A stretch of DNA of 64,000 nt from Clavelina lepadiformis (taxonomy: Eukaryota > Chordata > Ascidiacea > Aplousobranchia > Clavelinidae). The stretch lies in assembly GCF_947623445.1 (NCBI RefSeq), contig NC_135241.1, positions 2,978,501 through 3,042,500 on the forward strand, read 5' to 3'. Below, one piece after another: positions 3,501 to 27,262 of this stretch; the stretch's first letter is position 1, and every line of letters starts with the position of its first letter. Position numbers and translations under genes: made by a program. The notes under the pieces were generated by a model that saw only the letters and a program-made list of their open reading frames with translations, was not told where the DNA came from and did not search any database.

Positions 3501-4016
3501 TTATTTTGCATATGCAGGACTTTGCCTGTAATCGACGCGTCCAATAATACTGGGTCGATGGAGTTTAGCATCGCGGGGTCACCAGATGATTTTTTTCCCA
3601 TCAACGTTTCTTTCCATTCCACCAAGAAATCTTTTACGGATATTCAGGTAAGTTACGGTAATAATTCATGTCACGTAACTCATAATGAAAGCATCATAGT
3701 TATGTTATTACTCAGTCCATTTGTTATAATGTTGTTCATGCAACGTATGTATGCATTTTCCTAATTTAATTACACAAAATTAACTTCCTGAATAAGCGAT
3801 TCGTTCCTGTTCGCACCACGTCGCTTTAAATGTAACATTGTGAGCAATATCGTGTCAAACACCGCATACCTAAAGCTTCATGTGTTTATTATGCGCGACT
3901 GCTCACGTCTTTCCTTATTTGTTAAGATCACCGGAGTTGAGATGGCGCAAGGGAGATCCCCGGTTAAATATTCCTCAGAAAGTGCCTTGCTCGTCGAAAA
4001 ATATGAGATCGTTTAG
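531..4016 (+). CDS. ARCN1: Coatomer subunit delta (archain), 5' truncated by window edge
   Basis: This is the delta subunit of the COPI coat, which works in retrograde Golgi-to-ER vesicle transport on the cytosolic face of Golgi membranes. Visible exons are 531-670, 903-1082, 1278-1371, 1471-1573, 1691-1852, 2148-2313, 2669-2816, 3240-3429, 3518-3647 and 3927-4016, all GT/AG with matching phases; the stop is TAG at 4014-4016. About 466 residues are present against 511 in human. The missing N-terminal 40-odd residues lie upstream of base 1. The longin-type N-terminal part is clear ([17 protein letters not shown], then [20 protein letters not shown]). A basic charged linker follows, then the mu-homology domain from about 2148 ([40 protein letters not shown]). 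The C-terminus [10 protein letters not shown] is near-identical to vertebrate archain. I am very sure of the family; exon borders could shift by a few bases. Confidence 0.96.
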
Positions 4017-6947
4017 TCCTTTCACGATCAGAAGTTTTCCCTTTTTGTGAAATATATAGACCTAAACCGATGTCAGTGAAGGCACGGACGTTTAGACTTT
4101 TATCGATGACAACAAAATAAGCAAGAACTCTGTTGCCAAAACCTATGTTTTTTCTACTTAATGTACTGTATATGTAAATAGCTTCCTGTTATTAAGTGCT
4201 AAATACTAAATTAGGTGGAGTTTCGATACGCGTAGGGGTAACACGTTGTAGCGTAGTTTCGCATTTATTTTTTGTTATTCTCATCCGACCTATGACATAA
4301 ATTTCGTATTAAGAAGCGTGCGATGTTTACCGGATGTTAGAGTACATGAAATGCTATTTTTCTCTGTTACCTGACGTATATCGTGCGCTCTAATCAACGT
4401 TTAGTTACAAGGCGCTGTACACTGAACTAACTCACTCTGTATTCCAGCGACTTCTGTTTTCAAGTTCTAGGCCTGATATGTCTTGCATTGGCCCGTGTAG
4501 TGCAATATAGTCCAATTATACCTGCTTTCTTATAAAATCAAGCCTTCAAATTAGTAACAGTTATTGCTGTAGTAACACAGACAAGTTAAAAGAAAATTAG
4601 CTAATAATTTCCGGTTTCTTATTAATCAATTTGAAGCAGCAGCTATTGTGCATTTATCGAATTGTGTTGCTGGCGATTGACAAGTGACAAGATTTAGTGA
4701 TGTTGTCATATATTATAATAAAACATTGGTGCAAGTGTGAATGTGCTAATTTTATAGGCCTAAGTTAGTATTAGTAACAAACATTAGTTCTTTACTGTAA
4801 AATACTGTAAACATTAGTTCTTTACTGGTTATCAGTAGACCTACTTATAGATAAGTTTAGCTCATGCTTTGCGAGTGATACGACATTGGGTGATCAACGA
4901 TTCCTCATTCTAAATGCTGAGTCCCTTTCATTATGACATTTCACAAGCGTAGTGTCTGAGTTAGTTTCAAAGCGTAGTTTCTAATACGTAGCCACATTGC
5001 TTTCTGTTTTCGTCCGGTCTCAAACAAAGATTTTTTATTTTGGGAAAAGTCATTAAATGAGGGTTTTGCTGAATCAAAATAATCTTGTTCCATCTTAGGC
5101 AGCCAAGGTACACACCAAAATCTTAACTGTAAAATTATGTCTTAATTAAGCAGTAAATTTGGAAAAGTATATTTCTTTTAGATAAAATTACACCTACATA
5201 AGTAAGATTTGAATTAAATTTAAGCACTTTAAAAAAAAACATTAACCAAACAACAAAACGCGATCTTTTAAGAATTTGTGCAAAGCGATTTCTTTCTTGT
5301 TATGCGTTTATTCTTGTAGAGCTTACAAAAGAATTTGTTTTTGTCGGTAAACCGTGGTAATTTGCCGGTAATTTTTCAGCAACATTTGCGCCTTTTAATC
5401 AAGAGCGCGGTAGTATGCAGGAAAGTATGTGGCTAAGCAGCAAGTCGATTCACACATGTCTTAAATCGCTTCATTAAATTAATGAGTGATCCACCACTGT
5501 TAGCAAGACCGCGGTACGACACTAACATTTTGAAGCTCTTGTGTACTGCTTTTCTAATATACGGGCATTCTCTAATTTAATTCTGTTTAACTCTAATTTT
5601 ACAAAATTATGTTCTGAAGAAGATAAGATGTCGATTGTTTTGTGGCCTTCACGCGTTTGCGTGCAACTCCGGCACCGTGGCTGTGGATCAGATTCCAATC
5701 CCATACTGGCCATTAGGATGTAGTTTATGCTGAAACGTGAAGATACCGGTATTCCGGGTAATTGTGGGTTGCGTTAAATAAAAGTTTAATTACGTCTAAA
5801 TCGGATCAAAAATAATAAAGAATCGACGATACGTGCAAAGTGACTAGCAGAGTATGTTTTCTTTTCCTGTTCTGCTGTTTCCGATTTATCTGAACAGATA
5901 CGGTATAAGGGTCAAAGTTCCAAGATCTATTACGAAATGAAGAAAATTTTCATCCCATGCATATCATCTGAAATGGAGTATTATATTTCTCAATGCAAGA
6001 GTAAATAGGCTAACAGTTCAGCGGTACATGCTGTGCATGTTAAATATATTATTTTGATATAGGCCTAAATACCGTGCTAGCGGATTACGGTATGTTTAAT
6101 CTGCCTGCCATACCGGTACCTAGTGGAAAGTATGGAGATTCATCAACATCTAACGTGCACACCGGATTTTATCTTCACACAAGTTTATAATAAATTAACA
6201 AAGAAAAGCCAGTTGTTTAAACGCCAATTTATAATAAGTATGATAAGCCAATATAATAAGCCAGTTTGTTGTGTGCTTAAGGTATTCTTTGTCACTTTAA
6301 TCAAACTATATCACTTCATATATTTATTTCGGCTGTTAATATCCGTGTTTTAAATGTTAGGGAACATGTCTTCAACATCTTCCAATAGTTTAGCTATTTC
6401 ATTGTTTGCGTTATTTTGGTTTTAAATTCGTTAAACTTAGCAATTATTTTATGAGTTTGGTGGCCATGCTAACCTACCATCTTATAGCACAATTCTATTA
6501 TTGCTATCTTGCATGTTTTAAGCCCTTGAGCTTTACCAGTTTTTTCTGCTCGTTAATTGTTCGTGAGCATGTGTTGTATTGTGCTGTAACTACAACGGTT
6601 AGCATCTTAACTTTCAATCCGCACAGTTAATGGCGAAAAATAAACAATACAACACAGAAGTAAACAAAGAATTAAGGTTTTAGTGCACGCCATTATGTCA
6701 AAAATTGCGTCTTTACCTGCACGATTTCTCGTCGAAAGTTGTCATACTTTCCAGTTAGGTCTGCCTGTTTCTGTACAGACCATAGTGTCAAGTGTTCCAC
6801 CTGCACAGGCTGCATGTACAAGGTTCATCAACGTGCGTGCCAAGCTTTTTTATCTCCATGATAATTTATTAAATGAACGAAGAAAAACTGGCTGCTTCAA
6901 AGCCAATTTATAATAAATAAACAGAGAATGTAGGTTTCACTTTACAC
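4017..6947. other. Intergenic, ARCN1 3' flank, no gene seen
   Basis: No open frame here resembles an exon. A short direct repeat (aaacattagttctttactg) occurs twice within 50 bp near 4778 and 4808. Around 5641-5725 there is a GC-richer patch with a weak B-box-like string (agattccaatccc), possibly a decayed tRNA-derived SINE. From about 6660 the sequence is a copy of the repeat that also flanks the MITE at 6948. Confidence 0.5.
6675..6765 (+). repeat. Interspersed repeat copy (empty-site counterpart of the MITE locus)
   Basis: This stretch (aggttttagtgcacgcc ... attgcgtctttacc ... actttccagttag) aligns base for base, with divergence, to the sequence on both sides of the MITE at 6948-7276 (aggtttcactttacac, then catcatgcc ... 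tttgcgtctttaaa ... ccttccagccag). It is an older repeat present at least twice here. A third fragment (taaggttttagtgcaagc) lies near 23610. The family is not recognised. Confidence 0.6.
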
Positions 6948-8750: not shown

Positions 8751-9011
8751 TTAGCAAAATAGGTACATTAAATATAACAATGTTGCATTTCTGACAATGC
8801 CACTTAGAAACAAGAAGCTACCTTGTTTGAGGTATTTTTTTTCTTAATTCTTTTCTAATTAGGAAGTGTTTTGTTGCTGTTTTTAGTACATTTGCAGATC
8901 TTTTACCATATAATAATTTTTAGAATAAAACATTATTAACATTATATATCTTCTAACTGTAATTTTTACGTTAGTAGAATACATGTTAAAATAATTTTAT
9001 TTAAGGATTAT

Positions 9012-10310
9012 ATGAAACACAAAAGGTTGCTGTATTTTTCCATTAAACGGTTCAAGTCAACGGTTTCCAACATGTCAACTGAGTGTATTAAAGAAAAATC
9101 TCAAGAGAAAACCTTAACCTTCACACACAATGAGCAAGTGACCCATATTGGAATACCATGTTGCATCATGCATACACAAACTGGTTGTATTCCCCATTTA
9201 ACGGAAGAGACCTTGGGCTACTTGGATAAGAAGCTCATTCAAAATATATATCAAGTTCCTTCGCCGTCAGTTATAGATTACCAGGACATTTTGGAGGCAG
9301 CCAACACGAACACATTGGAGTGTCTTTGCATGCCAAACACTAGTGTTTTATATGCAACTGTCCAAGACTTTTCTTGTCTGCCGCCAAGTGGTTACAATAC
9401 AAACAAAACAGTCGCTGTCTGGGGTGCAGGTGGAAAAATTAGTGTAACACCACAAAGTTACATGAAATTAATAGAAGTGCTAAAACCAGACATTTTTCAA
9501 GTATTAGCGGATGGTGATGTTTTGAAGGCTGAATCTCGAAAAAGGATCATTAAATCTGTGAACCGATCTGTGCAGTACTTGGATGAATGCATAAAATATC
9601 ATCAGCAGAGCAAACCTTTGGAAAATTCAAAAATGATATGCATGATTGAAGGCGGTACTAATCTTGATGAACGAAAACGTTGCATGAAATTGATGCTGGA
9701 AAAATTGAAAGGTCATGAAGATTGCGTTTGGGGATTTGGCATTGATGCACTACCAAGAGAAAAACATATCAGTGAAGAAACCAAAACAGTTATAAAATTG
9801 CTCAATGATGAACTACCTGCAGGCAAACCGTTGTTGGTTCATGGATTTGGTCATCCATTGAACATAATCGATCTAGTTGAAGATGGTGTTAGTGTTTTTG
9901 ATAGCACCTATGTTACTGAACTTTCTGAAAGCAATCATGCACTTGTCTATGGCATTCCCAGCATTGATTCAAGTTTATCTTTGCAAAATGGTGACGCTAA
10001 AACAAATTGTTCAATTGTTGATGTTGATGTTCGAAAGTTTGTAGAAACAATAGACATTTCTGATTCCTGCTTTTCACGTTCATTTGCGCCATTGGTAGAA
10101 AATTGTCCATGTTATACGTGTGTTAATCATACCAGGGCATACATACAGCACTTAACTGTTGTAAATGAAATGTTAGCTCCAGTTTTGTTGATGCTACATA
10201 ATCTTCATCACCATTTAACTTTTTTCTCTGCTGTACGAAATGAACTTAATGCTTGTTCCAATTTGAAAAGCTTTAAGCAAAAATTGATTGCCTTAAATTC
10301 CATGCATTAA
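9012..10310 (+). CDS. QTRT2: Queuine tRNA-ribosyltransferase accessory subunit 2
   Basis: This is the non-catalytic partner of QTRT1. The heterodimer exchanges guanine-34 for queuine in tRNAs with GUN anticodons and sits on the outer mitochondrial surface. The gene is one uninterrupted 432-codon exon. It matches vertebrate QTRT2 in HTQTGCIPHLT, GYNTNKTVAVW, ALPREK, FAPLVENCPCYTC and NHTRAYIQHL. The zinc site C365-x-C367-x2-C370-x25-H396 is complete. Start: Met1 at 9012 is used, but Met21 (9072) is closer to the family start and could be the true one. A good acceptor-like tract (ttatttaag, ending about 9005) lies just upstream, possibly for a spliced leader. No AATAAA is seen before the next gene; see the operon finding. 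Confidence 0.95.
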   Translation: MKHKRLLYFSIKRFKSTVSNMSTECIKEKSQEKTLTFTHNEQVTHIGIPCCIMHTQTGCIPHLTEETLGYLDKKLIQNIYQVPSPSVIDYQDILEAANTNTLECLCMPNTSVLYATVQDFSCLPPSGYNTNKTVAVWGAGGKISVTPQSYMKLIEVLKPDIFQVLADGDVLKAESRKRIIKSVNRSVQYLDECIKYHQQSKPLENSKMICMIEGGTNLDERKRCMKLMLEKLKGHEDCVWGFGIDALPREKHISEETKTVIKLLNDELPAGKPLLVHGFGHPLNIIDLVEDGVSVFDSTYVTELSESNHALVYGIPSIDSSLSLQNGDAKTNCSIVDVDVRKFVETIDISDSCFSRSFAPLVENCPCYTCVNHTRAYIQHLTVVNEMLAPVLLMLHNLHHHLTFFSAVRNELNACSNLKSFKQKLIALNSMH

Positions 10311-10491: not shown

Positions 10492-13400
10492 ATGGCACTT
10501 GCTGTAAGTGCATTGAAGCAACAAATTGAGAAGGCAAAGGAGAGTCTTAAGTCAGTTGATGACAACATTAAGAAGGTGACTGGCCGAGACCCAAATGAAG
10601 CAAGGTAAGTTACGCAATAATTATTATTGTTGACAATTAAAAGCATTGAAATAAAAGAAATTGAAAGAAGAACAAAAATGCAGAAAATAGCACTATTGAG
10701 TTAAGAATTGCATTTGTTTTTATAACAACTAATTTTACTTCAATTTTTTTAGGCCACTTCCCGACAGGGGCAGGGGTAGAGGAGGTTCCAACTTGGGAAG
10801 GTATTGTACATCATACTTAGTCATTATTCTATATTTATAAACAATAATCTTCTGTAGCTTAAATTTCAAACTTACTCCCCAAGTTTCTGTTGGTAATAAT
10901 GTATGGTTTTGAATGAATTTCATCCTATGCAGTAAATTAGCCTTACTTAGAATATTTGTGTGCTGCCCTTTTATTACACCCTATGATTTCTGAAACAGGC
11001 GTCACTATGAAGACCCCAAAGAAATAAAGGAAGAAGAACCAGCGGCAAAGCGGACAGGAGGAATATTTCGCAGGTTTCTACTATTTTGAGCAGATGTCCG
11101 CGGTTAGCACAAGTACCACAATAACCAGGTTGTTTATTTTTTCAGGGTTGGTTCTGCACCCAGCGGTGACCAAGGACGAAGAGTCCTCATCTCACGGCGC
11201 CATTCTCAAAAGCAACAACAGGAAAGTGAAAACGAAGATGATGAAGATGACGTCGTGAAAGTGAGCTACCTTCTTGTCCTGTTGAACTTCATCTAGTCAT
11301 GTTTTCTGCTTGCATCTATATAATTTACTTCTGACAAAGTTCTGTAAATTATTCCTTATGTTTCCCATTTTTATCAGCCCAAAGTGCAATCGTCTGTCAT
11401 TTCAACTGCAAAATCAGTTACGAAAAGTGAAGTGATTTCGGCTCAGAACGTTGATGAAAAAGGGAAAGCTCGGTATGACAAGGCCTTAATGTGTCATTGC
11501 ACAATTTAACTTTGTTTTATTGGAAAGAAATGCAAATGATGTATAATGTAGCTGTACAAAAATTTAACTTACTTGTAGAAATCGAAGGATGTTTGGAATG
11601 CTCCTGGGTACCCTTGCAAGGTTTCAATCAGACGAAAGCAAAGCAGATCATTTTGTAAGTCCTGTTTGATTCTGATTTTCCGATGAATTTACATGAAACA
11701 CAAGATAGCACAAAGAATATTTTGATACTTGCATGGCACCAAGCAGTTGGTCTGAAGATGTGTAATTCGTTGTACGAACGGTACAATATAGAATACATGC
11801 AACCATAACCGACTATAAAGCAGCCAACACCATAATACATTATTAACATTAAGATAATAATAACAACATCAATACAGGCTAAGCAGGAACAGAGAAGAAC
11901 GGAAATTGAGCAGCGACTGGAAGAAGCGTCGGCGGAGGAACGAAAGAAGGCGGCTGCAGAACGGAGGGGACTTTACACGGAGCGTCGAAGCCAGCAGAGG
12001 AAAATCTTGCTATTGGAGCAGAAAGTTGCTCTAGCAGGAGAGGTGTGGAATATACTATTGAGTGCTTTCATTGGCATTGAATAGGGATGCACAATACAGA
12101 ATATTGTCCGAGAATACTTTGAAAATTAAAAAGTTGAAACCTGAACATTGCTTTTCCTTACCTTTTGTTACGGTAGCTCATTTAAGAGGACAGTTGTCAA
12201 ATGGATATAATGTGGATCAGTGCATGACGACTAACGCATGCAGAGCTTGGCTTTGCAATTTAAAATCGGAATTTATTTATGAAAGGAAACTGATCCCTAG
12301 GATTCCAAAAAATGTATGAAAATTGAAATCCTTGACATTTGCTTCTGTAGGATTCGTTATCTTAAAATTTGCATCCCAGATATTGACATTTTTATTGACC
12401 TTTCTCAGCCTCAATTTTATTTTTATTTTTTTCTATTCAATGTACGGTAAACTATTTTGAGTTTTGATAATTAAACTGATTTTAATGATAATCTTATTTA
12501 GTTTGAGGATTGGGAAAAAGAGTGGAAACAAAAGGCAAAATTCTTGATCACAAAAACTCACCCACCGGTGTTCTTCCTGCCGAAGGATACAACAGGTCGC
12601 ACCATAAGAGCATTAAAAGAAACTGAGAAGACAATTGAAGGTAATTTGGTGGCACCTGAATGATCTGCGTCCTACTGTAATCCAAAAAGTTTGTCTTACA
12701 GGAACTCGTAGTGCGCTGCTGCATGGAAATACCAAAACAACTTTATATAATTTTTCTTATAATTTCAGAGAAAATTGAAGAGAGCAGAATTTCAATGGAA
12801 AAGACATTGGCGGACATTGATCATGAAATAGAGTTATTAGATAAGGAAATCAAGGGGGGCAATGTAGAATCCACTAATGGGGGCCATACAAACGCCGATA
12901 TCAAAATACGCGGCAGAATGGGTGATAAAAATATAGATGAGGCCGTCGATGACCTCACAGAGGAACCGAACGTCGATATACAAGTTGAGTCCGACGCAGA
13001 GGAAAATAATAAAATGGGTGACGTTTCGGAGAGTGATGAGGGAAACGAAGGTAAGGATAATTCACGCGGGGCCGAACCAAGGGGGGAAGGTGATGTAGTA
13101 AAACACGAAGGTTTACAAGTGGAAATCGATGTTGGTAAGTCGGGTGATGCGGGCAACGATATTGTTATAAAGCAGGAAGCAGAAGCATTAGAAAATGCCA
13201 CTGGCCACCCTAATGATGACACTGATGCTCAAGAAAGTAAGAAGGAACCATCGGGTGATACAGGGACGCCTGATGCAAATGAGGTGGAGGTGAAAGAAGA
13301 GAGAAATGAAAGTGATGAAGAGGAACCTTCCTCGAAACGATCGGGAGATCCTGAATCTGATGATGACCGGAGCAAGAGTAACTTCGATAGCGGCAGTGAA

Positions 13401-14579
13401 CGCGAAGCTCCTGGCAAGCTCGAAGCAATGGATGTAAGTGGTCAAAGTTCAGATAGCGGGGAAAGTGCAGACGAACGTGCAAAATCGCATGAACACACTT
13501 CTGATTCGAATGATGATGTTTCGCAAAATGATTGTCAAACAAAAACCTCATCTGCAGAAGAGGGAAGCCCAGGAAAAGCTCCAAAATCGGCGGAAGGCTC
13601 TAGCAGTGATGCGGAATCTGATGAAAATAGAAGCTCTCATGAAGACGAAATCCAATCAGAATCAGCTAAAGAACAAAACACAGAGTCCATTGAGTATGTT
13701 GTGCCTAGTCCTTCGAAAAAGTCTGCTTCCGAAAAGCCAAAGGATCACAGAATTGAGTCATCTTCATTTCCTGCCAAAGCTAGCAATCTAGATAAGAGTG
13801 ATTCTGCTGATGAAGAGCAAAGTCATGCAGTGTACAGAAAAACATCTTCTGGAAGAAAAAAGTCCAGTAGTTCTAAACAGTCTGGATCTGATGATTCCGG
13901 ACAAGAAAGTCATGATGAAGAACGTAAACAACCTGCCAAGGAAAAGCTTTCAAAGGATGAGGATGGTAGAAGATCCAGAAAGAGATCTCCAGGTGCCAAC
14001 TCTCACAGTAGACAACGCAGTGATTCAAGAAGAGGCGGGGAGAAATCGAGGCAACATCGTAGTCGCAGTCCTGCCAAAGGAAAGGAATCTCGTAGAAGAA
14101 CTTCATACCGCAGTTCGACACCAAAGAGAACATCTTCAAGAAGAAGTCCCAGTCCAAAAAGAGCCAGATCAAGAAGGAGTCCAAGTCCCAGAAGGCATTC
14201 CTCCAGAAGAAGTCGTAGTCCATATGCTTCTCGTTCAGAACGTGACAGAAAGCAGGAAAAGGAACGACTTCAGAAGCGTCGTAAAGCTTCCAAATCATCC
14301 TCTTCATCGGAAACTTCATCTTCTGAAGAGGAATCACCAGTAAAAGTGCAGAAAAGGAAAAAAATAGACTCTCAGAAGTTGTCTGGAAGGCGAGCAGAAA
14401 GCCATGACCAGCGTCGTCGTCGTCAACTGTCGTCCCAGTCAGAATCCAGCTCTTCATCAGATAGTGACAGCTCTTCATCATCATCGGATGCTCCAAGTCC
14501 TCCGAGAAGCAAAAAAAGTCGAAGAAAGTCTCCTGATAGCCACACCCATAGCACAAGTGGTTCACGTAGAAGGCGTTGA
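10492..14579 (+). CDS. PNN: Pinin, splicing and desmosome-associated SR-like protein
   Basis: Pinin is a nuclear-speckle protein that binds the exon junction/ASAP-type complex and modulates alternative splicing. Exons: 10492-10604, 10753-10800, 10999-11073, 11146-11260, 11378-11472, 11579-11654, 11878-12042, 12502-12640 and 12769-14579, all in consistent phase, giving 878 aa (human 717). The N-terminal pinin/SDK domain is clear: LKQQIEKAKESLKSVDDNIK, then VTGRDPNEAR. The conserved core is NRRMFGMLLGTLARFQ, then EIEQRLEEASAEERK and LLLEQKVALAG. The final 1.8-kb exon encodes an acidic low-complexity stretch followed by an Arg-Ser domain (SRRSPSPKRARSRRSPSP) and a poly-Ser tract, ending SGSRRRR. 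The long acidic region is lineage-specific. A likely poly(A) signal AATAAA is at 14978-14983. Confidence 0.95.
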
Positions 14580-15774
14580 TATTTATCGACACGAGAAGAC
14601 GCACACCATAATCATCCCACGATGTCATTGCTAAGGCACAAACTCTGATGCAGAGGTTCCTTCCACAAAATTTATGATTATCCATGCTGTCAATTAAGGT
14701 TTAATTTTACGCAAAGGCAGTGTAATCATTGATGAGCCCGGGCATTTTCTGATGCTTGCTGCATTTTGTGTTCTTGTTTAATTGTAATCCTCGAGCATTT
14801 TTTTTAATTTTATGAAAGTCTTATTATGGCCATGGTAGCTGAAAAACGCTCTCGATTACTTTTTAATGTGTCGTATAATATCAATGCTCATCATTTAGTA
14901 CTGGTTGCATTGCATGAATGTGTAGTTGTACATTGAGATATTCATAGGGTTATGTTACCCATGCCTGATGTTGATGTAATAAATTTGGCATCGGAGTTAA
15001 ACTAAGTCAAACTTTCCAAGATTTATCAGTCGTAGCTTATGAGATACCTGTACTATGTCAAAAAGTTTAAGTAAAAAACAATCAAATAGAATCCATTTTG
15101 AGAATTATTGACATTCTACTACAGAATTTCGTGGAAATCTTTTTCTGGGATGCTTTGAAAGTCGTTTGTTTTTGTTCAGGTTCCTTATGTGTAGGTGAAT
15201 AGTTCTTTAACTTGTTTAGGGTGCTGAATCCGATAAGTATGATACCTGTATAAGCGTTCAACAAACACTTCAATATAATTAAGAAACATATATACTGCAC
15301 ATCATACACACACGATGTGTGTAGTGACTTACGCCCACAAACGCAGTCTAAGAACCCCTGGTATAGGTTGTTTGAGAAATTCTGATAAACATTTGGTGGA
15401 ATATTTTATTGGAACTGGTCGTGATGATGAAATGATTACACAGAAAGTGAACAACTTGAAATCAAACCATGCATATTTCATGATGAACAGACATTCTGTC
15501 AAAATTTTGAAAGCATCAAGAAGTCAGCAATACAGTTGCAATAAGCAGAAAAACAAAGTGCAAATTCATTAACAAATACTGCAGTAAAATGACAATTGCA
15601 CAAATCACAAATGTAGTTCAGTAACACAGCCCAATATGATTACACTGGACATAATCAGCCAAATTTCAGTGTACATGCTTCCTTTGCTTGGACTGATCAT
15701 TGTAAGTAACTGTGTAAAAAATCTCTCTTGAGAATAAAATAGTTGCGTTAAACAAAAAAAGAAACTGATGTATG
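14580..15774. other. PNN 3' UTR and convergent intergenic gap
   Basis: This holds the PNN 3' flank with AATAAA at 14978. About 0.7 kb of AT-rich sequence then leads to the convergent ACTMAP stop. An 85-codon frame at 15315-15572 has no recognisable similarity and no splice context; I do not call it a gene. Confidence 0.5.
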
Positions 15775-17305
15775 TTAAAAATGCAAAACCATGTATTTAT
15801 TGCACAATGTATCTTCAAGGTTGTAGGGGCAGTGAAGCCAATTCCAGTCTCTTTTTGGGTCATACTCCTTCAAGTTAGAATTACTGGTTGACAAACTGTT
15901 CAAAGACCACAGCCTATACCTTGCTGACTTTCCTTGTTTTCCATACAAGTAGATTAAAGATGTGTTGATATTTTCTCCATCTTGCAGGGCAAGTTTATCA
16001 GCCAAATTTTCTTGAAACCACTGGCTATCAATAATTTTGACTAAATTGGGCAATTTTTTATGAAATTGTAAGTGGTTATCATCAAAAGTCTTCTTTTTAC
16101 TCCCAATAACTGCACCTGCAAATATATATCTTGAGAAAACATCTTTTATGGTGATAACGTGAGCGCAACAATCACAGATTACCTGTAATAATTGCCCAAT
16201 GGGCTCTGTGGCCACGCTGTAAACAGGGCTCAAAATTTCTATCGTTGTCGTAAGGTACAATGAGTGGATGGCCACAAAGAAGGTTAGTCAGGATTGTGTG
16301 GGCGTTGTGCTTCATTTCGGTATCATAGATTGTAACTTCACAGCGGTATAAATTTCTCGCCAACACTGCCATGTCATACACTGCAAGACATGCAACATTT
16401 TACTTAAAAATATGCACACGCAGTTTGGTAGTTTAATACTTCAGTATGGTGACACTTTTTCAGAAGTAACCTGAAAACATTTCCCCCTGCTTCGTAAATC
16501 CAAGTTTAATTGCTGCTTGCAAAATGTCATTGTTAGTATACTGTGGTACTGAAGACCTACACTTTTCCAGCATATGTCCAGCCATGCTTAATGCAACCAG
16601 ACCACACCTTAAAACAAAAGGTTCAGAGGTAGCAAAATTGCTATGAAGCATGTTTTATGATATGATGAAATTCAACATGTTTCACAATATGCTTAGAATG
16701 CAAATGCAGTAATTTAGCAGTTTTTATGAAGCATGCGCATTCAAAATGCACTGACACTGTTTAAACATCGTTTGCAAAAACTGATGCATATTCTACTTCA
16801 ATACATTGTGGTAAACCAGATTGGAAAGTGTGTGGGGATAAAAATTAACTGCATGTTCAATGGCTATTGTTTCATCTCGATTGCGTGTGGGATTTCTCAC
16901 GCAAAATCGCAAACCTTCCAATCTGGGTAGTATACAGATCTATTACAAAGAATGCATTATATACATTGGTCTTCTGTATCCTTGCAAAACGGAAGGGACC
17001 GGTGTATTGAAGGTGTACCAATGTAATGGGCTGCGGATATAAGATTGCCTGTGACAAAAAGATAACATAACATACAGTACTACTGGTCATACTGAAACTA
17101 AACATTTTAAACCAAATTTTTGCTAAAATTTGACAAGCTCTAACAGATATTACCGTCTATCAACATCTTCTATTAATTTCAAACATAACTGCCTTTCTTC
17201 ATCAGGAGATTTTTCTTTGGAGTTTTCTACCAGTCCAGCAGATTTGAATGCAAATGCAGGATATCGTGGCACATTTGTATGTTGAGCATAAACATCATTT
17301 TGCAT
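15775..17305 (-). CDS. ACTMAP: Actin maturation protease (C19orf54 family)
   Basis: ACTMAP is a cytosolic cysteine aminopeptidase that removes the acetylated N-terminal residue(s) of nascent actin. Minus-strand exons: 17305-17154, 17048-16965, 16607-16471, 16380-16183 and 16115-15775. The phases close exactly to 303 aa. Family landmarks, in order: PLHWYTFNTPVPSVLQ (human DLRWILFCADLPSLIQ), the nucleophile block MCGLVALSMAG with Cys80, KQGEMFSVYDMAVLARNLY, GHPLIVPYDNDRNFEPC, the catalytic-His block GHRAHWAII (His185), and the C-terminal KQGKSARYRLWS. The Cys and His are both present, so it should be active. It is shorter than human because it lacks the proline-rich N-terminus. It sits tail to tail with PNN and head to head with the NAP1-like gene, 509 bp between start codons. 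Confidence 0.93.
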
Positions 17306-17814
17306 TGCACTGCTTCACGCTAATTTCACAATACCCTATCATTTGCCGCTAACCTTCACATATTAGTTCGCAATTCAAGTACTACATTCAATACGTTATA
17401 TCTGTCACTACCGATAGAAGTATTGTGATTGGCAGTAAGCTTAGTACTGTTCTGTACCATGACAGTATTTTACAAAATACTACCGAAACCGACAAGTATA
17501 TTTCCTCAGTGTATTTTAGATAGTTTAGACTTTCATTACCGTATATTATTGCAAAAGGACAATCTACAATTATAACTATTTACAATTACATTGACGAATT
17601 TATTTCACAAAAAAGTGTTGAAAATGTTCCATGGTTACTCTAGGTGCCATACTGGTAGGTACCATAGTAGGCTATTTACTGCTGGAGTACTGCAGTGAAA
17701 GGCTAACAAGAAAAAATACGATGCCCTTCTGTTTTCTAAAAATTGCAATTGTTTTGCAAAAATGACGTATAGTTTATTTACAAACAGGAGTTTTGCTTTG
17801 ATTTAAGGAACGAA
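17306..17814. promoter_or_regulatory. Shared intergenic promoter region of ACTMAP and NAP1-like gene
   Basis: This is 509 bp between two divergent start codons, with no other gene. It probably holds both promoters and 5' UTRs. No TATA box or CpG cluster stands out. Confidence 0.5.
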
Positions 17815-20800
17815 ATGGCACCACGCAGGCCCAAGAAAATATTCGAAAAGCCGAAAGTGAACGCACCCAAGAAACGCAAAGCAAAATTAACAAAATCGAA
17901 ACCAAAAAAGGTGAATCTATTACAGTTACACGTTGGTGATATAGCAGTGAGCTTCTGTGTGATTATAATGGCGAGTTTCTAGCAATATGTTGTAACTACT
18001 TTGGTCAAAGTAAGTTTTTTGTTAATATAGCATTGTTTGTAACTTCAGTTTATCAACTCAATATGGAAAAATCCGGAATTTATTTCACAACTACGCAGCA
18101 AATTAGATGTACTAGTAAAGCAACGACAAAAAGAAGAAGCCTCGACGGTGGACGAAATTCAGGTTTACTTCAATTTTCTACAAGATTACTTCACTTGTAG
18201 GCTACAAGATAAAGTAGATTAGATAAGTTCTGTAGCATGATTAATTTTTGCTCAGTTCAGTCATTGGTCGCCTATTTAGTTGTTTGGATCATTTCTAGAC
18301 CTCGGATGATTCTTTATTTGTTCCGAGCACTTCTTACGACGACTCAACTGAAATTGATGACAGTATGCCATCTCTGCCGAGCTTGTGTTGTGAGAAGGAA
18401 GAAAGCGAAATCACACTTCTTCACTCTTCTGAGGTTAAAAAAATTGGTGTCACGGCTTCAAAGTTATCTCAATTTAACGATATATCTGTTTATACGGCAA
18501 TAAGATGTAGGTCTAAACATTAGACAATAAGTTTAGCTTTTTCTTTAGGTTGAGCAATTTACTCATCGTCATAAAGCTCTTGCAACAATCCATAATCAGT
18601 TAGTGGGGCTGGAAGTTAAATTCCAAAAAGAGATCTTCGACTTGGAGAGAATGTACATAGAAAACTACTATCAACCTCTTCTCCTTCTTCGGCACACAAT
18701 ACTCAATTTAAACTCTAAGTAATTGTTTTCTTGGAAGCAAATCAGTCGTTTTAAAGTTTCCTTGCAAGCAAGCTGCTAAACTATAGGCTGAAAGTTGTGC
18801 GATGTGAATCGGCATTTCTTTGCTCTTTCAGACGTAGTTGCAAAACAAGAGATGAAAAGGAAGTGCTGGAGGCATGTAGATCAGTCTTTTCGACAGAAAT
18901 GAACAAGCTAATAGAACTAAAAGTTCACATGCGGAGCCTTCTTTCAGCAGGTAAGATAAATCTGTTGTTTGATGCCAATTAGGCTATATTTATGTCAGTT
19001 TCACTTTGCCGCCTAATCGTTATTGGTACCATTATATTACTGAGAGGAATATGAATCATTTTTAATTTTTTTGAAGATTTAAGACAGACTGAAAAACCAA
19101 TCGAAGATTTTTGGCTCAAAGTGCTTCTTCATTCGCCGCCTCTCGTTCGTGACTTGATCCAACCAATTGAAGTCGATGCTCTGCGTTATCTGGATGATAT
19201 ATCAACTCATTGCATTGCTCGTCCCTCTGGGTTTTCTTCCACTTCTGATGAACTGGACCAACACTGTACGTTAAACAACAAGTGCATTTGTAAAGTCACT
19301 CTGACACCACCGTAGCGTATATGCCTTAACGTTTATATCTTAGAGCGCGATACAAACGGCGTGGTTTGGAAAGTTTCCTTCCCGATAAAATTTCTCAAAG
19401 ATGATTCAATACCACTGTTTTTATTTAGAGTAGGTGAAGAGACAAGAGGATTTGAAATTCGTTTTGAATTTCGACTCAATCCTTACTTTGCGAACAAAAC
19501 CCTTTTCAAACGTTACGTAATAGAGCTACTTCCCGAAGACGAAGATTATGTGTCGATGGTAACTAACGCAAACAAGAAGAAGCCACCTGACGCATTTACA
19601 GACGCTGATCTTTCCCTAGATGAGCAAGGTTTAGAAAAAGTTATCCAAGCACATAAAGGATATATGTGACACGGTCGTTGACAATACTGCGTTTACATAG
19701 GTAGCCAAATGGACAACACCAAATGTGAAAGTAATGGGCAAGGGTTCGATGTGGGAATCGCGAAGCTTTTGAATTACAAAGGACCCCAAGTGGTAGCCAT
19801 CGAAGGTTGCGGACAGATCTATTGGAAAACCAACGGTAGGTTTCAATGATATGTAAGAATAAAAAAGCTGATGCTGATTATCTTCTAGCATACACCTGAT
19901 GAAGCAAGCTTATAATGTTTGCGAAAGCTCGTGTGGCAGAATTAAAATTATAAGTTAACTCTATAAAGTGCCACCTTATATTCTGTTTTCATATGTTAGA
20001 ATTAAAATAAGATTTTCTAATCATAGCTGTTTTTTTACCTTAGTCATATGTATATTTACATTGGCTTCTTTGGCGTCATTGCTCGCATACGGTAAATAAT
20101 GTAACTTTTGTGCATTACTGTAGCATGCATGACGTCATCGGCTTCAGCAGATATCCGGTTGTCTTCCACAACACCTAATACATTTTTCTGCTTCTTGCAA
20201 ACTAGTTGGGTTGCCGAACCGTTTGAACGCCACGAAAACATTGAAAAGTAAGTAATACAACTAGCAATGACGGTTTTTGTTGTCACTCAAAACAGACTTT
20301 GACTTGAAGTGTAAAAAGAAAATTAAAAGTTTCTTGAAATCTTCTAAAAAATTTTTCCTATTTTGCAAACATTTTAATTGTTTATAAGTTGCAATAATTT
20401 TTTTTCTAATTTCCAGCGATTACCGGATAGGCACATACATTCGTGACGTAATAATACCACGGGCGTACGCAATTTACTTTCAACCACCAGACAATCATAT
20501 AAGCCAGCCAAGCAAGACAGGTAGATCTCATGAGGTAGAAATTGTTTTTAGATTAACCAGGTTTTCAGCGTTGTCTCTTAAAATTAATGCAGAGTTTGTG
20601 GCCGAAAATCAACCTGAGGATTTTCTCAGAGCAACGGTGCCGGAGAAACAAACATCTCGCTCTGCATCCTGTGCTGATGAAGAGGAAATTTGTGAGACTA
20701 AAATCCCTGTTCAAGAGATTCCACCGGATGAAATCCAAGCCAGAAAATCATCGTCTCCTAGGAAAAGATTTTCGCTTCCACGACCACAGGATCTCATGCG

Positions 20801-23333
20801 AGATTATAACGATTCCAATAACGAAGTACCATTGGCAGATTCAACCACACAGCACGCAAATGATTTCGTGCAAACAGAGGATCGGCTGATTAGAAATAGA
20901 CCTTCGCACAGAATTCAAGAGAATCCAATATCATCACGGAAATTACTAAACAAGATGACTATGCAGAATGCAAACGACTTCGCCCAAATTGATGATCGAC
21001 AGATTACAAATCGATCTTCAGTACCGATGTTTGAAGAACTGAACGAAAACGAGCCTGGTTTTAACCCAGAAGCCGTAATGTCCAATGTCTTTCTCAAAAA
21101 TGATGCAGACGTTGACATTGATGACGACGTAAATGTAGCTGTGGACGTAGATGATGACGTAGATAATAATGTTGATGTTGACGTTGATGATGAAGTAATC
21201 TGCGATAACATTGACGTGGACGATGAAGTCATTTGCCATAACGTAGATGTTGATGACGAAATCCCGTTTTTAAACTCAGCTCTAGAACAAGGAATCAGAC
21301 CTCATGGCGTTAATGGCCAAAGAGGCTCATTGCAATTCGGGACTGACCCTTTCAGTCAAAAACCACAATCGAAATTTTCGCATCCCTTTAACCGTGACCT
21401 AATTCGACAATACGGCAAGGTAGACAATGACGTCATCCTCCCAGAAAATGCTCCTTCTATCCAGACTTGCAACAACCGATTCTGTAACACCGATAAAAGC
21501 GCGATAACTTCTGCAACGCAGTACCCATTCATCCAGAACCTCTTTCAGAAAAATGCGTCGACTTCTCACAACTTCTGTGACCCAAGCCTCACAAAAGCAG
21601 CCGGGTCTTATCCAAGTGAGGACTCCAATGTTTGTCAATCTGTGGCCGATTCTCGAAAGCGGATGGCCGATATTGTCAATAAAGTGAACAGCTTGTTAAA
21701 GGAAGGTAATGTCTTGAAAGTCGCTCTACAACGCAATAAGTACGACACTTCATTGAGCCCTAAAACGGTTTTGATTTATTTGCTTAATACGTTTGTTTAC
21801 ATGTCTTCAGTCACCGGCGTGATAATTGAGATTGTTTTAAAGAATGTTTAAAACATCTGCCAAAGCTTCTACACAATACCTTAGTGTGACAAGCAAGATT
21901 ATTTTACCTAAAGTGTTCATAATTTTGCGAATTCCAGGGTATCACGGAAAACCGTCTTTTCATCGTGCTGCAAATCCTCCAAAAGTTTTGAACAGCTCAG
22001 TGAATCGTATGTTTGACAGCGTCATTGAAGATGCTATTCATCTAAACAGAGTAAAGATGTATGAAGATGGAAGCGACCTGCCTACCTCGGTGGGGGCCCC
22101 ATCCCATCTCGGCGACGTGGCAGACGATGAAAACTGCTGGTAGGCGAATGTCTGTTTCAGGTTTCACTTCCGCATTTTGCATTTTATCTCTTCTGACTGG
22201 TCTTCTTTGGAACCCTTTGTGATTTTGTTTGTGCAGGTCGGATTGCGGCAGACCAAGTATAAACAGAGCCTTTGCCCGTATTAAATACGACATGAAGAAC
22301 AAAACTGGAAACGAGTAAATCTTAACTTATATTTTAATTCCATGATTGGGCATTTTGTAGTTTTTAAAAACTTGTCCGGTGACAGGACTAACTTAGTCTA
22401 CGACATTTTCAGAGAATCAAACACCACTGTCACCCAAGAGCAGTTGCCCAGCAGTTCTCATTCTTCCCAAACGAAATGCCAAAAAGAAAGAGTGAAATTT
22501 CGCAAGGTTTCTCCATACCCAAGCGACGGAGAAGTGGATGACAGTGACATATTGAGCACCTCGCAGCACACACCGATTGATACAGAAGGTACGGATCCTT
22601 CTGAATCGAATGCAAAATAGTTATGATAACTGCAACTTATTTTTATTGAGATATTAACATCGTGTACCATAACAACAGTGTCTTGAACATTACAAAACTT
22701 CATGCAACGATTTCTAAGGATAGACTTCAGACGGATTTCTGACTCCGGAGTTTGTTTTAGAACTAAATATTAGCCTTCTAAGTCCTTGTTATAATGACGT
22801 AGACGGCCATGCTGTCAATGTTTCCACCCCCTCTTCGACGTCAGTCAGTGACAACGAATCTTCGAACACGCTTAAATGCTTCAACTACAAAGTTAAGACA
22901 AAGAGATCTTACGACAACTTCCTAAAATCGACGACAAGTAGCGAAAATAACGACACTAGTGGCGCTCCGTTCTGTTCAAGTGGAGGTAGGCCTAGTTAGT
23001 AGTGTTTAAAAAATAATAAAAAAAATCTGTGAGTAAATTGTGACAATTAAGTTTTAGATAGTTTATATAAAATAATTACCGTTGCGGAAAGATTCTTAAG
23101 ACTTATTTTAAAGTTTTGTGGCTGGATTAGTCTTCCAAATTTGACTAGAGACAGTTTGTAAATAATATATACATGTAGTGCTATATCAAGCAGTTTAATA
23201 ATTTTTTACAGTTCCAAAACGGGAGTCAACATCGAAAAACACGATAAAACAAACGGAACCGGAAATTGATGATTACGACAGTGAGGCACCACCACCTGTC
23301 GATGAGAATGTTGCTAGTTGCAAGCAACAGTGA
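17815..23333 (+). CDS. Extended, divergent nucleosome assembly protein 1 (NAP1) family member
   Basis: This is a histone-chaperone-family gene. Proposed exons: 17815-17910, 18049-18162, 18299-18433, 18549-18718, 18832-18950, 19077-19265, 19346-19628, 19701-19835, 20124-20247, 20417-21705, 21938-22139, 22237-22314, 22386-22588, 22761-22985 and 23212-23333. They give about 1160 residues against about 390 for NAP1L1. The N-terminus is Lys/Arg rich (PKKRKAK, NLS-like). The NAP core follows in order: VKFQKEIFDLERMYIENYYQ, DFWLKVLL, FEIRFEFRLNPYFANKTL, GCGQIYWKTN, NTFFCFL and YRIGTYIRDVIIPRAYAIYF. After the core comes a roughly 720-residue extension with internal repeats and an acidic DVDDEV region. 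The last four residues are CKQQ, the same prenylation-type C-terminus as vertebrate NAP1L1. From exon 7 on the phases agree. Two earlier junctions are insecure: the donor of exon 3 (chosen at 18433) and the exon 6/7 junction, where the simple join would create TAG. Expression-ready status is therefore not proven. Confidence 0.82.
21107..21265 (+). repeat. Degenerate in-frame tandem repeat coding for Asp/Val-rich units
   Basis: Within the long NAP1-like exon, repeated gatgttgatgatgaa-like units encode about 53 residues made mainly of DVD, DDV and DDE blocks. The last three units are a clean 10-residue period: VDVDDEVICD, NIDVDDEVIC, then HNVDVDDEIP. The antisense strand is open through the same stretch because of the repeat, not because of a second gene. 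Confidence 0.8.
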
Positions 23334-23725
23334 TGTCATAAAGAAAATGTTTTACCTTTATCAATAGACCTTCATATAAATATTTTAATTTAACTACGCT
23401 TCAAGTGGTCAGTTGTTTATGCAATATCCAACGCAAGGAGCGCTATTTCTATCAATAACCAGTTACGCAGCGTCTTTTTGTCTCCGCTAGACAGGTCTGT
23501 AGCCGCAGGCGGATGAGATACGTGTTTTCTGTTATAACCGCTGAGAATAATTGGGCTTCATGTAAGCAGTATTTACATAGGAAACAGCGAATATAGGCTA
23601 CTTCGGTTTAAGGTTTTAGTGCAAGCAAAAGTGTTCCTCTGTTATCAGTGTATAGTCAAATTCATTGATACTTGTTCTAAATTAAGACTTAACATTCACT
23701 AGGCTTGTGACCAGCCATTGTAATA

Positions 23726-24332
23726 ATGAATGGTATTGAATGGTTTTGTTCATCGTATGTCTTTCTACCACTTATTTTCCTGGATCGGGCCAGTGCTGAA
23801 ACATTGGGTAAGCTGTATATTTTATCTTGTCTGTCTTGGCTCCACCCACTTGTTGTAGAAATTTACTTATACAGGAACCTTAACCTATTGGTAATTGGGG
23901 TTAAGTATATTATGAAAGTGGGTCGTTATATCTTGTACCTTTCCAGTCTCACCTCGCAACGAACCTAACTGGGTCCTCCTCATGGTCGTGTTCATCGTCT
24001 CGTCTGCTGTAGCGGCTGTCGTAGGCATTGTAGTTTTAGTGAAGAGCCCAGAAATACCAGAACCACCCGAGTTTCGTGAACCGTCGTTCGACCGCAGCCC
24101 CAGCATGGCTACAAGCGTCTTACCACAGTCTAACAATCTGGTAGTGACGTCGTACAAGCAGTACCCGCTCGAATACGAACCGAATAGCTACCCGATGGAA
24201 GCGATTCAAAGCAGACGTTCAGACAATCCAACGATGGGAAGCCTGCAGCAATTTTCGGTGCAAGAACAACAACACACTTTGCAATCGCAACCGAGCTATC
24301 AGCCCATCACTGTCATGACACAGAGAATGTAA
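23726..24332 (+). CDS. Small single-pass membrane protein, unrecognised
   Basis: Two exons, 23726-23807 and 23947-24332, join in phase to 155 aa. Residues 1 to about 24 look like a signal peptide (hydrophobic run YVFLPLIFL, then small residues RASA). After a very short lumenal or extracellular stub, residues 37-59 form one transmembrane helix (VLLMVVFIVSSAVAAVVGIV). The remaining 95 residues are a Pro/Tyr/Gln-rich cytoplasmic tail (PEIPEPPEF, YKQYPLEYEP) ending VMTQRM. The arrangement is that of a small type I adaptor-like protein, but I do not recognise a family and assign no function. It follows the NAP1-like gene by 392 bp on the same strand. The clean exon join with residue-type continuity makes a real gene likely. 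Confidence 0.72.
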
Positions 24333-25019
24333 AAAGAACCTCCAGTATTTGCTGGCAGATTATGTGATGGAGATTCACGACTAAAGAGACTTAAATTTTA
24401 TTTCACATTTTCTCTTTTGCGTTTTTGAAATGAAAACCTTACGGCAATTATATTTGTGGTCGCACACACGATCATATCTCCTTTCGTGGAAAAGTTACAT
24501 TTTGCGTGGAGTCATAACTAGCATGTTTCTTTTTATGCAAGCATATAGCATCATACATAACTAGGATATTCTTATTGTTCATGTGATGTGTAACTACTTG
24601 TTACTGCAGTATGTGTTGTTTCTAAATTTGCTAGATTAATCTAACAATTGTAAATCTTCCTCTGTAGAATTTTACTGTCGTTATAAGAAGCACACTATTA
24701 TACTTGAGATAAAGAGTATTTTGAGTAGGCCACGATTTGAATGGAACGAAATAATTTCGAGTGGGATAAAACAAGCCATGATTGTTGTCTTCAGATATTG
24801 CACGGCCAATGTGGAAACAAACGTAAAGAAATTTTCTCGGTCGCAATGCCATTACAAGCAAATAGGTTTTTGCGCGACAGGATCATATGCACTTGACACG
24901 GATCTTGTGTTATCGAATAGCCTTGGGCGTAATGCAGCTCGTCTTGAATGCCAGCCTAATTCCCGGTCATGTAGATTGCAGCATAGTGATAGATAGATAG
25001 TGATAGACATAGTTGGCTG
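24333..25019. other. Convergent intergenic gap with short GATA microsatellite
   Basis: This lies between two convergent genes. A short gatagatagatag tract is near 24989-25003. Nothing else is supported. Confidence 0.5.
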
Positions 25020-27262
25020 TCATCTTGAAAATTTGCTGTTAATTGAACGAGTTAAAGTTTGAAGAAAAATGTTCGATTTATTGCCGCAATGAAGGTGATT
25101 TTCCACCGCTGGATTTCGTAAGTTGTTCTCCATTTCTTTCAGCAAATATTTTTTAATATCTTCCTCGAAGTTGTACTGAAAATATGTAAAAAAAGTTGCA
25201 GTTGAAAGACAAACCAAAATTAAAACAAAAAGTTTGTAAAGCAACATCTACACAAGCTAACCTGTCGCATAGCATCATTAGCAGCTTTAAACGCTGGCGC
25301 GTAATTATTGTAGTATGTATTGGCATTTCCGTGCACCACGAAAGCACCTTCCTTTTCTGCAGAATCGCAAAATCTTTCCCGATAACCGTCAAAGCAAAAT
25401 TTGTGATGGTAGTTGTATTTGCACGGAAGGTAATACAGACGTTCTACAACGACAAGTGTGAATAAATGATAAAGTACTTGACGAGGATGAGCATTGGAAT
25501 CGAAGACAAATAACCCATGACCTATATCAACCAAAAGATACCTATAGACTGGCGTGTAATCGTCAAAAGTAATAACCATGGCGTTTAATACACGTTAATA
25601 CTCTTAACTCGCGTTCGATGCCATAATTGAAACCACACCTGGGTTATAGTGGAACACGGTGTTAATAAGATTCTGGTCTCCGTACATGTCTTTGATCCCC
25701 AGTCTATAAAGAGGGATTAGCAGGTCTTTATTCCAAGGAGACAGCTTCTTGGATAAGCTTTCATCGGTCTTAAAAATGACTTGCCTCATTCGAGTGAGAT
25801 TCATCAGGAATACCTGAACAAAATGACTGTTTTGTAAACGGATTCACGTTACCGGTAATAGACGTTTGAAGAAAGCACTTGCTAAATGTGATCAAAGAGT
25901 ATTCGATCGTTTAAAAAGCAGTATATATCTTACGCCAGAGTTCACTTGCGTAAACTTTCCGCCTGGCATTTCAATGAAATTTGGGTTGTTTGGGTTGACT
26001 TTAAAATCCCAGCCAACGCGTGGTGCTAGCGCCCCCACTTGGAGTTCATTGAAGAGGTAAAAATGCTGCCAAATTTCCTCCACCGCTCCAAGAAAGATGA
26101 CGTCAGTGTCAACGTAGAGAACAGAATCGACGTCAGCCATGACAGTCTAAACGCAGTCGCAAGGTTTGGGTTAAGTAATTATTCAGTAACGAGCCATCAT
26201 CATAAACAGAATTTGAAACCATAAAAATGTCGGTGTAGGCTTTAGCTGGAGGGGTAGTCTATCACCAGGTACTTTTAAAAAGATCTTTTCGAAAAGGAAG
26301 CCGGTACAGAGATGTAGTGCATTAGTTTGATATTGACTTCAAAGTATACTTCAACAGATGAACAATATCTTAGGCATCTCGTCACAACATGCATATCATA
26401 ACGGACACGTTACGATGATTAATCTTACCGGTAAGAAGAGTCTGAATGATGCGCACGGACCCCACCAATTCATCATTTCTTCCAGCAACTCGCCCTCTAG
26501 CGGATATTGCAGAGAACGAACCGTCATCTTGAATTTGTTTTGAACCGACTTGGGCCAGGACGACACCTGCGAAGGAAAACAGTTGATGAAATAAAATTCC
26601 TGGATTAAAAACAGGTTTAACTATTTAAACTGTTTTGTGTCAAATAATCCTGCGTGTACCTCTTCTTCGAATTTATTTTGGAGGTTTGTCGTGAAAACGT
26701 GAATGTGCAGAAGAGATTCGGTGAACAATACGGCGCTCTTCATCATGGTAAGCGCTTCCGGAAGGATGTTTTCTGATTTTCCAGCGCACGCGACCACCAC
26801 CAAGTGTACAGTCGTGTTTGACGGCATATTTTTTTGATCATTAACATTTCTCGCTAAAGAAATTTTTTGTGCAGGAAGTAGCTGAAGAGGCGCCATTCTG
26901 CAATAAAGTGGTTTTGTTATATTTTTGTTTCATTGTTGACGTTTTATTCAAGGCATACATTTAACTTGCAATTTCTTGGACGGAGAAGAAAAAGAAAAGC
27001 GAAAACCATAAATAATTTCTTTACTACTCCCATATCATATTTGTTTTCACACACACAGCTCTAGTTATTTTTACACGACTTCAGGGTTTCATATGTCATT
27101 CGTGGTTCTCTTGTTTTACTGCAGTTCAATCGCAAATAACATTGCTTACCTCACAGAGCGATCTTGCCGCAGGTTGATGGACTGATAGATGAAAAGAAAA
27201 AGCAAAAGTGTTATGAACAGTCCCACAAGCGATCTCAGAAAACGAAACCTTCTGAAAGGCAT
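25020..27262 (-). CDS. GXYLT: Glucoside xylosyltransferase-type GT8 enzyme
   Basis: GXYLT1/2 add xylose to O-glucose on EGF repeats of Notch and similar proteins in the ER/Golgi. Minus-strand exons: 27262-27150, 26897-26660, 26566-26429, 26146-25934, 25813-25639, 25443-25262 and 25175-25020; all phases close to 404 aa (human GXYLT1 440). It is a type II membrane protein: basic MPFRRFRFLRS, then an anchor FITLLLFLFIY. The GT8 landmarks are HLVVVACAGKSE, WGPCASFRLFLP, the metal-binding YVDTDVIFL (DTD, residues 176-178), VNSGVFLMNLTRMR, GDQNLINTVF, LPCKYNYHHKFC and FVVHGN. All active-site elements are intact. One gene here corresponds to two vertebrate paralogues, so I cannot say GXYLT1 or GXYLT2. 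A wrong but tempting start is Met at 26896; the true first exon is the separate anchor exon. Confidence 0.93.

Follow-up and report, generated by a model that had tools for sequence, protein, structure and literature searches.

The locus and its gene

The DNA described here is a stretch of 64,000 nucleotides from the ascidian Clavelina lepadiformis (NCBI RefSeq assembly GCF_947623445.1, contig NC_135241.1, positions 2,978,501 to 3,042,500), referred to below as the window. On its plus strand lies a gene of the nucleosome assembly protein (NAP) family, modelled in 15 exons from an ATG at 17815 to a TGA at 23333 and comprising 1,139 codons. Judged from its sequence, and with a probability that we put at about 0.7, the gene is a divergent paralogue of the NAP1 subfamily with a long in-frame extension and a CKQQ end. 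The model was rebuilt from splice sites and phases, and every phase in it is consistent. The genome searched for relatives holds 209,060,895 bases in 95 contigs, and in it the window is C2:2978501-3042500. A sequence-only reading of the same DNA had proposed one NAP1-like gene in which a large segment separates the core from the CKQQ end. This proposal holds up, since the NAP landmarks follow one another in order, the 15-exon model is open, and the end is homologous to that of NAP1. The features of the gene are collected in Table 1.

Table 1. Exons, repeats and other features of the gene, in positions of the window. A slash in a donor marks the exon-intron boundary. NLS, nuclear localisation signal; TRF, Tandem Repeats Finder.
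Feature	Position	Strand	Content	Basis or remark
Exon 1	17815..17910	+	basic N-terminal tail (MAPRRPKKIFEKPKVNAPKKRKAKLTKSKPKK), candidate NLS	open frame; donor AAG/gtgaat
Exon 2	18049..18162	+	NAP N-terminal helix (NPEFISQLRSKLDVLV)	MAFFT placement against canonical NAP1 NPQVLAALQHRLDSIV, outside the BLASTP match
Exon 3	18299..18433	+	acidic/serine-rich linker	open frame; codon score top of six frames
Exon 4	18549..18718	+	long dimerisation helix (KALATIHNQLVGLEVKFQKEIFDLERMY..YQPL)	Pfam NAP match begins at residue 122; weak donor TAA/gtaatt
Exon 5	18832..18950	+	accessory/linker helix region	splice sites phase-consistent
Exon 6	19077..19281	+	EDFWLKVL...ALRYLDDI	3' end uncertain: 19281, 19230, 19269, 19265 or others
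Exon 7	19429..19628	+	GFEIRFEFRLNPYFANKTL beta-subdomain	5' end 19429 or 19431; acceptor ctgtttttatttag
Exon 8	19701..19835	+	...YKGPQVVAIEGCGQIYWKTN	aligned with FEGPEIINCTGCKIDW; low-scoring acceptor (-0.9 leave-one-out)
Exon 9	20124..20247	+	TPNTFFCFL...	alignment and splice sites; start may move a few codons downstream (second acceptor, by eye)
Exon 10	20417..21705	+	last core helix (DYRIGTYIRDVIIPRAYAIYF, to 20480), then about 408 extension codons	same frame throughout
Alternative donor	20520..20521	+	CAG/gtagat	last exon base 20520; phase 1, fits exons 11, 14 and 15
21-residue repeat, copy 1	20844..20906	+	TTQHANDFVQTEDRLIRNRPS	residues 576-596
21-residue repeat, copy 2	20958..21020	+	TMQNANDFAQIDDRQITNRSS	residues 614-634
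Acidic tract	21108..21254	+	putative counterpart, at a displaced position, of the C-terminal acidic domain in NAP1	residues 664-712
33-bp (11-residue) tandem repeat	21178..21260	+	2.5 copies, inside the acidic tract	TRF score 103
Exon 11	21938..22139	+	extension	phase 1 in, 2 out; true frame top of six by codon score
Exon 12	22237..22314	+	extension	phase-consistent; codon score uninformative
Exon 13	22413..22588	+	extension	phase-consistent; true frame top of six; low-scoring acceptor (1.0)
Exon 14	22731..22985	+	extension	84 open codons; low-scoring acceptor (1.5); codon score uninformative
Exon 15, final	23212..23333	+	...EIDDYDSEAPPPVDENVASCKQQ*	farnesylation-type end

The NAP core

Among the families of Pfam-A, NAP (PF00956) is the sole match at E <= 1, with an E value of 2.5e-27 and 96.2 bits against a curated cut-off of 28.6; the domain that the sequence-only reading had recognised by its landmarks is thus recovered by the profile. 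Six distinct sequences in the PDB match at E <= 0.001, and all are named nucleosome assembly proteins or NAP1. The landmarks of the domain appear in the expected order in an alignment to the NAP1 of the same genome. The identity to this NAP1 is 24% over residues 122-454, and the core is therefore very divergent, as had been claimed.

A search of the whole genome with the Pfam NAP profile gives eight exon matches at four loci: five in NAP1 (C2:14.70 Mb), one in SET (C8), one in a SET-like gene (C5), and one in the window gene. These names of loci follow a reading of the exon peptides. By BLASTP, the core scores 56.6 bits to Clavelina NAP1, compared with 32.0 to Clavelina SET and 30.8 to the SET-like gene. 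As far as sequence goes, the core is nearer to NAP1 than to members of the SET/TSPY type, a placement made by BLASTP bits rather than a tree, with models of the relatives that were assembled by eye and are partial. No further tandem copy of the gene is found within the window at E <= 1. A second gene of the NAP superfamily, of SET/TSPY-like type, may also carry a long acidic C-terminal extension: at C5:17897500-17906500 (L011, minus strand, about 2787-5609), acidic open frames (for example DDEDEVINVSSDG and YVDDDGAEYISSDDG) lie downstream of the NAP part.

The basic beta5-beta6 hairpin of NAP1 (KKKQKHKGRGTVRTV), which holds its NLS, finds no counterpart in the alignment, nor is one seen when intron 8 is read in three frames. 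In yeast ScNAP1 the NLS sits in this hairpin (PMC9128123). The hairpin is typical of the NAP1 subfamily, and here it is not treated as defining. The N-terminal tail of the window protein is strongly basic, with 21 lysines and arginines to three aspartates and glutamates in residues 1-60, and a tail of this composition could stand in for the missing hairpin.

The extension and its repeats

The core ends at 20480 (...RAYAIYF). Beyond it, the extension runs for about 685 codons over six exons (10-15), with about 408 codons in exon 10 and about 277 in the five further exons. The sequence-only reading had the number of exons right, whereas its figure of about 720 residues comes down to about 685 if the core ends where we place it. 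As exon 10 holds both the last core helix and the first part of the extension, this part is joined to the core without any assumption about splicing. The rest of the extension depends on five phase-matched introns and the CKQQ end.

Exon 10 contains 429 codons without a stop, compared with 51, 24, 22, 15, and 15 stops in the other five frames. The stop-to-stop frame around it measures 487 codons (20388-21851). The chance that exon 10 stays open past the core is about 5e-7 at the lowest stop rate of the other frames and about 1.5e-11 at their mean rate. Of control segments as long as exon 14, 1.5% are likewise open. By codon usage, the true frame ranks top of six in five of the nine core exons (1, 2, 3, 7, and 8, exon 8 barely) and in four of the six that bear the extension (10, 11, 13, and 15); this scoring used 1,676 training codons, in part from unverified open reading frames of the window, and control stretches presumed to be noncoding. 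The coding case, as read from the DNA, is built on the open frames, the phases, the substitutions within repeats, and the homologous end.

Two duplications are found within exon 10. The 21-residue duplication has a score of 64, which is reached by none of 200 shuffles of residues 455-660 (maximum 44) and by none of 60 shuffles of the extension minus the acidic tract (maximum 57). The second is the 11-residue tandem repeat inside the acidic tract. This tract (residues 661-720 have 25 acidic and no basic residues) lies about 210 residues past the core, whereas in Clavelina NAP1 it adjoins the core. The extension had been called low-complexity, which describes mainly the acidic tract; the 21-residue duplication is separate from it.

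The copies of both repeats together differ at 33 bases, distributed 8/5/20 over codon positions 1/2/3, so that 20 of the 33 differences fall in the third position (binomial p 0.0012). For the 11-residue repeat the distribution is 5/0/10 (10 of 15, p 0.009), and in the 21-residue repeat 10 of 18 differences are in the third position (p 0.04); the p-values are somewhat generous, as the comparison uses overlapping copies of the shorter repeat and the 33 differences are therefore not fully independent. This third-position bias argues that the frame is correct and that it has evolved under constraint ever since the repeats arose. Local duplications of this kind between core and tail probably account for part of the growth of the extension.

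The extension is single-copy: seven candidates in the genome were scored, and the six matches at E <= 0.1 are all at the window gene. No Pfam-A domain is found in it at E <= 1, and Rfam gives no match in 15000-26000. A similarity of 47 residues between core and extension was dropped as weak (E 0.29). For exon 10, an AlphaFold model from the single sequence has a mean predicted local distance difference test score (pLDDT) of 37.6, and 396 of its 429 residues fall under 50. Such low values are compatible with disorder, for which they are weak evidence.

The CKQQ end

The protein ends in ...DENVASCKQQ, and the final codons are TGC AAG CAA CAG TGA. Clavelina NAP1 has the order core, acidic tract, and ...KETPKECKQQ (its exon ends were placed by eye). 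A CKQQ/CKQS C terminus of the prenylation type, as is characteristic of the NAP1 subfamily, is therefore common to the two genes, which supports the view of the sequence-only reading that this end has been retained. The simplest reading of the order in Clavelina NAP1 is that the CKQQ end was kept and growth took place between it and the core. It is reported that vertebrate, fungal, and plant NAP1 share a conserved CKQQ motif (PMC1175975). The farnesylation of human Nap1L1 at CKQQ is called well documented (PMC10320760), and in HeLa cells NAP1L1 is one of the proteins reported as farnesylated (PMC7902609). Since the motif is conserved in NAP1 and its farnesylation has been described, retention of CKQQ is what one expects from the family. 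The unusual point is the distance of CKQQ from the core. In the window protein, CKQQ is a predicted farnesylation motif.

The codon pattern of this end, TGYAARCARCARTRR (with TGG also allowed), occurs 120 times in the genome, compared with 53 times in the reversed control, and the 15-mer TGCAAGCAACAGTGA has 18 genomic places compared with none in the control. This over-representation of the 15-mer is due to one dispersed repeat family, to which 15 of the 18 places belong by their shared flanks (L013, L014, L016-L018, L020-L023, and L025-L030), whereas L015, L024, and the window place (L019) stand alone. The possibility that the CKQQ end is a piece of this repeat was rejected: the window place matches none of the other 17 at E <= 1e-5, and the only genomic match of window 23200-23420 is itself. 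As the window place has no flanks in common with the other 17, its CKQQ end has not been borrowed from the repeat family. From its genomic count, TGYAARCARCARTRR is expected about 0.0008 times by chance on the plus strand of 20481-23333.

Splice sites and alternative explanations

With the intron between exons 6 and 7 set aside, leave-one-out splice scores exceed 2.5 at both ends in 8 of 13 introns. Several observations count against the model as drawn. The gene is known from the sequence of a single genome. Leave-one-out scores are weak for the acceptors 19701 (-0.9), 22413 (1.0), and 22731 (1.5) and for the donors 18718 (1.4) and 22314 (2.3), of which 22314 bounds the same intron as acceptor 22413. 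The junction 19281/19429 is one option of several; its donor is weak (3.7, compared with 4.6-9.5 in the 13 others), and its phase differs from that of the nearby NAP1 intron. Codon usage is weak throughout, and several exons, including exons of the core, are indistinct from noncoding DNA. Both repeats are short. With respect to the end, farnesylation at the CKQQ of NAP1L1 is predicted with a low score (PMC7902609), and a humanised test of CaaX proteases saw no mating with an a-factor-CKQQ reporter (PMC11152559); these two results caution against assuming later CaaX processing.

The exon 6/7 intron also bears on whether the gene is intact. Donor 19265 with acceptor 19344 was rejected because the junction creates an in-frame TAG. 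If this stop were a true lesion, the gene would be a decaying pseudogene, for which the low identity of the core to NAP1 could also be cited. This is hardly credible, as 63 alternative GT/GC-AG pairs within the scanned range leave the frame intact. The pair with the top score uses the strong acceptor 19429, and an intron of Clavelina NAP1 lies directly before GFTLEF, about seven residues from the exon 6/7 junction and in a different phase. It is this proximity that favours acceptor 19429/19431. Nor is there a further stop across the 1,139-codon model, and the third-position bias of the repeats is not that of decaying sequence. The remaining intron positions mostly do not match those of NAP1, by reading rather than by computation.

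The most serious rival to a triple-length protein as the main product is a short isoform. In this case, splicing from donor 20520 to exon 15 (23212) would give a NAP protein of 507 residues ending in CKQQ, or splicing to exon 11 one of 744 residues, and the long form would be minor or intron-retained. Both products are open and in phase, and donor 20520 (9.4) has the highest score in exon 10 and tops every used donor in leave-one-out scoring (maximum 8.4). However, a high donor score alone proves little: exon 10 has another donor, 21419, with a score of 9.2, so that such sites occur without a clear role, and of 1,630 GT sites at 30000-60000, 44 reach a score of 7 or more. Moreover, the 395 codons of exon 10 past 20520 are open, although an intron should hold stops, and the repeats in them diverge with a third-position bias. 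We therefore regard a short main product as unlikely. It is very unlikely that the locus is divided between a NAP gene that stops in or soon after exon 10 and a separate gene next to it, downstream, made of exons 11-15. Exons 11-14 have no sequence match to NAP proteins, and AATAAA occurs at 21678 and 23015; this hexamer is common in the window, however, with 85 occurrences on the plus strand (1.33 per kb). All five introns keep the phase, and exon 15 supplies the NAP1-typical CKQQ in the right phase, which chance would hardly do. A single gene with a long extension thus remains the preferred reading.

Proposed mechanism and comparison with known proteins

By analogy with its family, the window protein may bind histones and act as a chaperone. 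The core would dimerise and bind H2A-H2B via the earmuff domain. The acidic tract, now tethered some 210 residues away from the core, would serve as the histone-shielding C-terminal acidic domain; in NAP1 this domain is reported to contribute to histone binding (PMC9128123). The basic N-terminal tail would take over nuclear entry from the lost NLS hairpin, and the CKQQ cysteine would be farnesylated as in NAP1L1. The extension may be trimmed by use of the in-frame alternative donor 20520. Taken together, these steps would describe a lineage-specific chaperone whose core and retained farnesylated end are set apart by a new tether, about 685 residues long and built partly from repeats; midway along it an acidic domain would have been rebuilt from an 11-residue repeat, and an isoform choice at 20520 would switch the tether on or off. 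The combination is tentative, and we rather doubt that all of it applies. Once confirmed, the gene would offer a natural test of whether the conserved NAP1 farnesyl end can act far from the chaperone core and of how the acidic tail of a chaperone can be rebuilt out of a short repeat, and it would add a strongly diverged histone chaperone to the tunicates.

Canonical NAP1 (the NAP1L1/NAP1L4 type, to which the Clavelina gene at C2:14.70 Mb belongs) has the order of the NAP domain, the acidic C-terminal tract, and CKQQ in common with the window gene. In contrast to canonical NAP1, the window gene is about three times longer, has a diverged core and a basic N-terminal tail, is without the KKKQKHKGRG hairpin, and has an acidic tract that is displaced and consists partly of the 11-residue repeat. 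TSPYL2 (TSPX/CDA1) has an affinity to the SET/TSPY type, whereas the window core is nearer to NAP1 than to SET. In TSPYL2, too, the NAP domain is continued by a long acidic C-terminal extension, which has a regulatory role of its own (PMC13023821), and the protein differs in its length of 693 residues; the word 'farnesyl' does not occur in the main text of that review. The sequence-only reading knew of no described protein with the layout of the window gene. A literature search for tunicate, ascidian, or long NAP proteins likewise brought up no such gene by title among its matches, although a NAP domain with a long acidic extension, as in TSPYL2, is known. The Drosophila NAP-family chaperone CG5017 works in the testis (PMC6337364), which is the kind of role that had been suggested for the window gene.

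Neighbouring open frames

Four other open frames of the window may be mentioned. Directly 3' of the NAP gene, a frame of 138 codons (23916-24332, plus strand), which includes a transmembrane-like stretch, matches no Pfam family at E <= 0.01. Upstream, the 632-codon frame at 12681-14579 (plus strand) abounds in acidic residues, in serine, and in residues of the SR/RS type, and the part tested, its first 306 residues, matches no Pfam family. The frame at 44578-45042 (minus strand) matches Pfam Hydrolase_like, of the haloacid dehalogenase (HAD) type, at E 1.2e-11. A long open frame at 8940-10310 (plus strand) matches Pfam TGT (queuine tRNA-ribosyltransferase) at E 3.6e-57.

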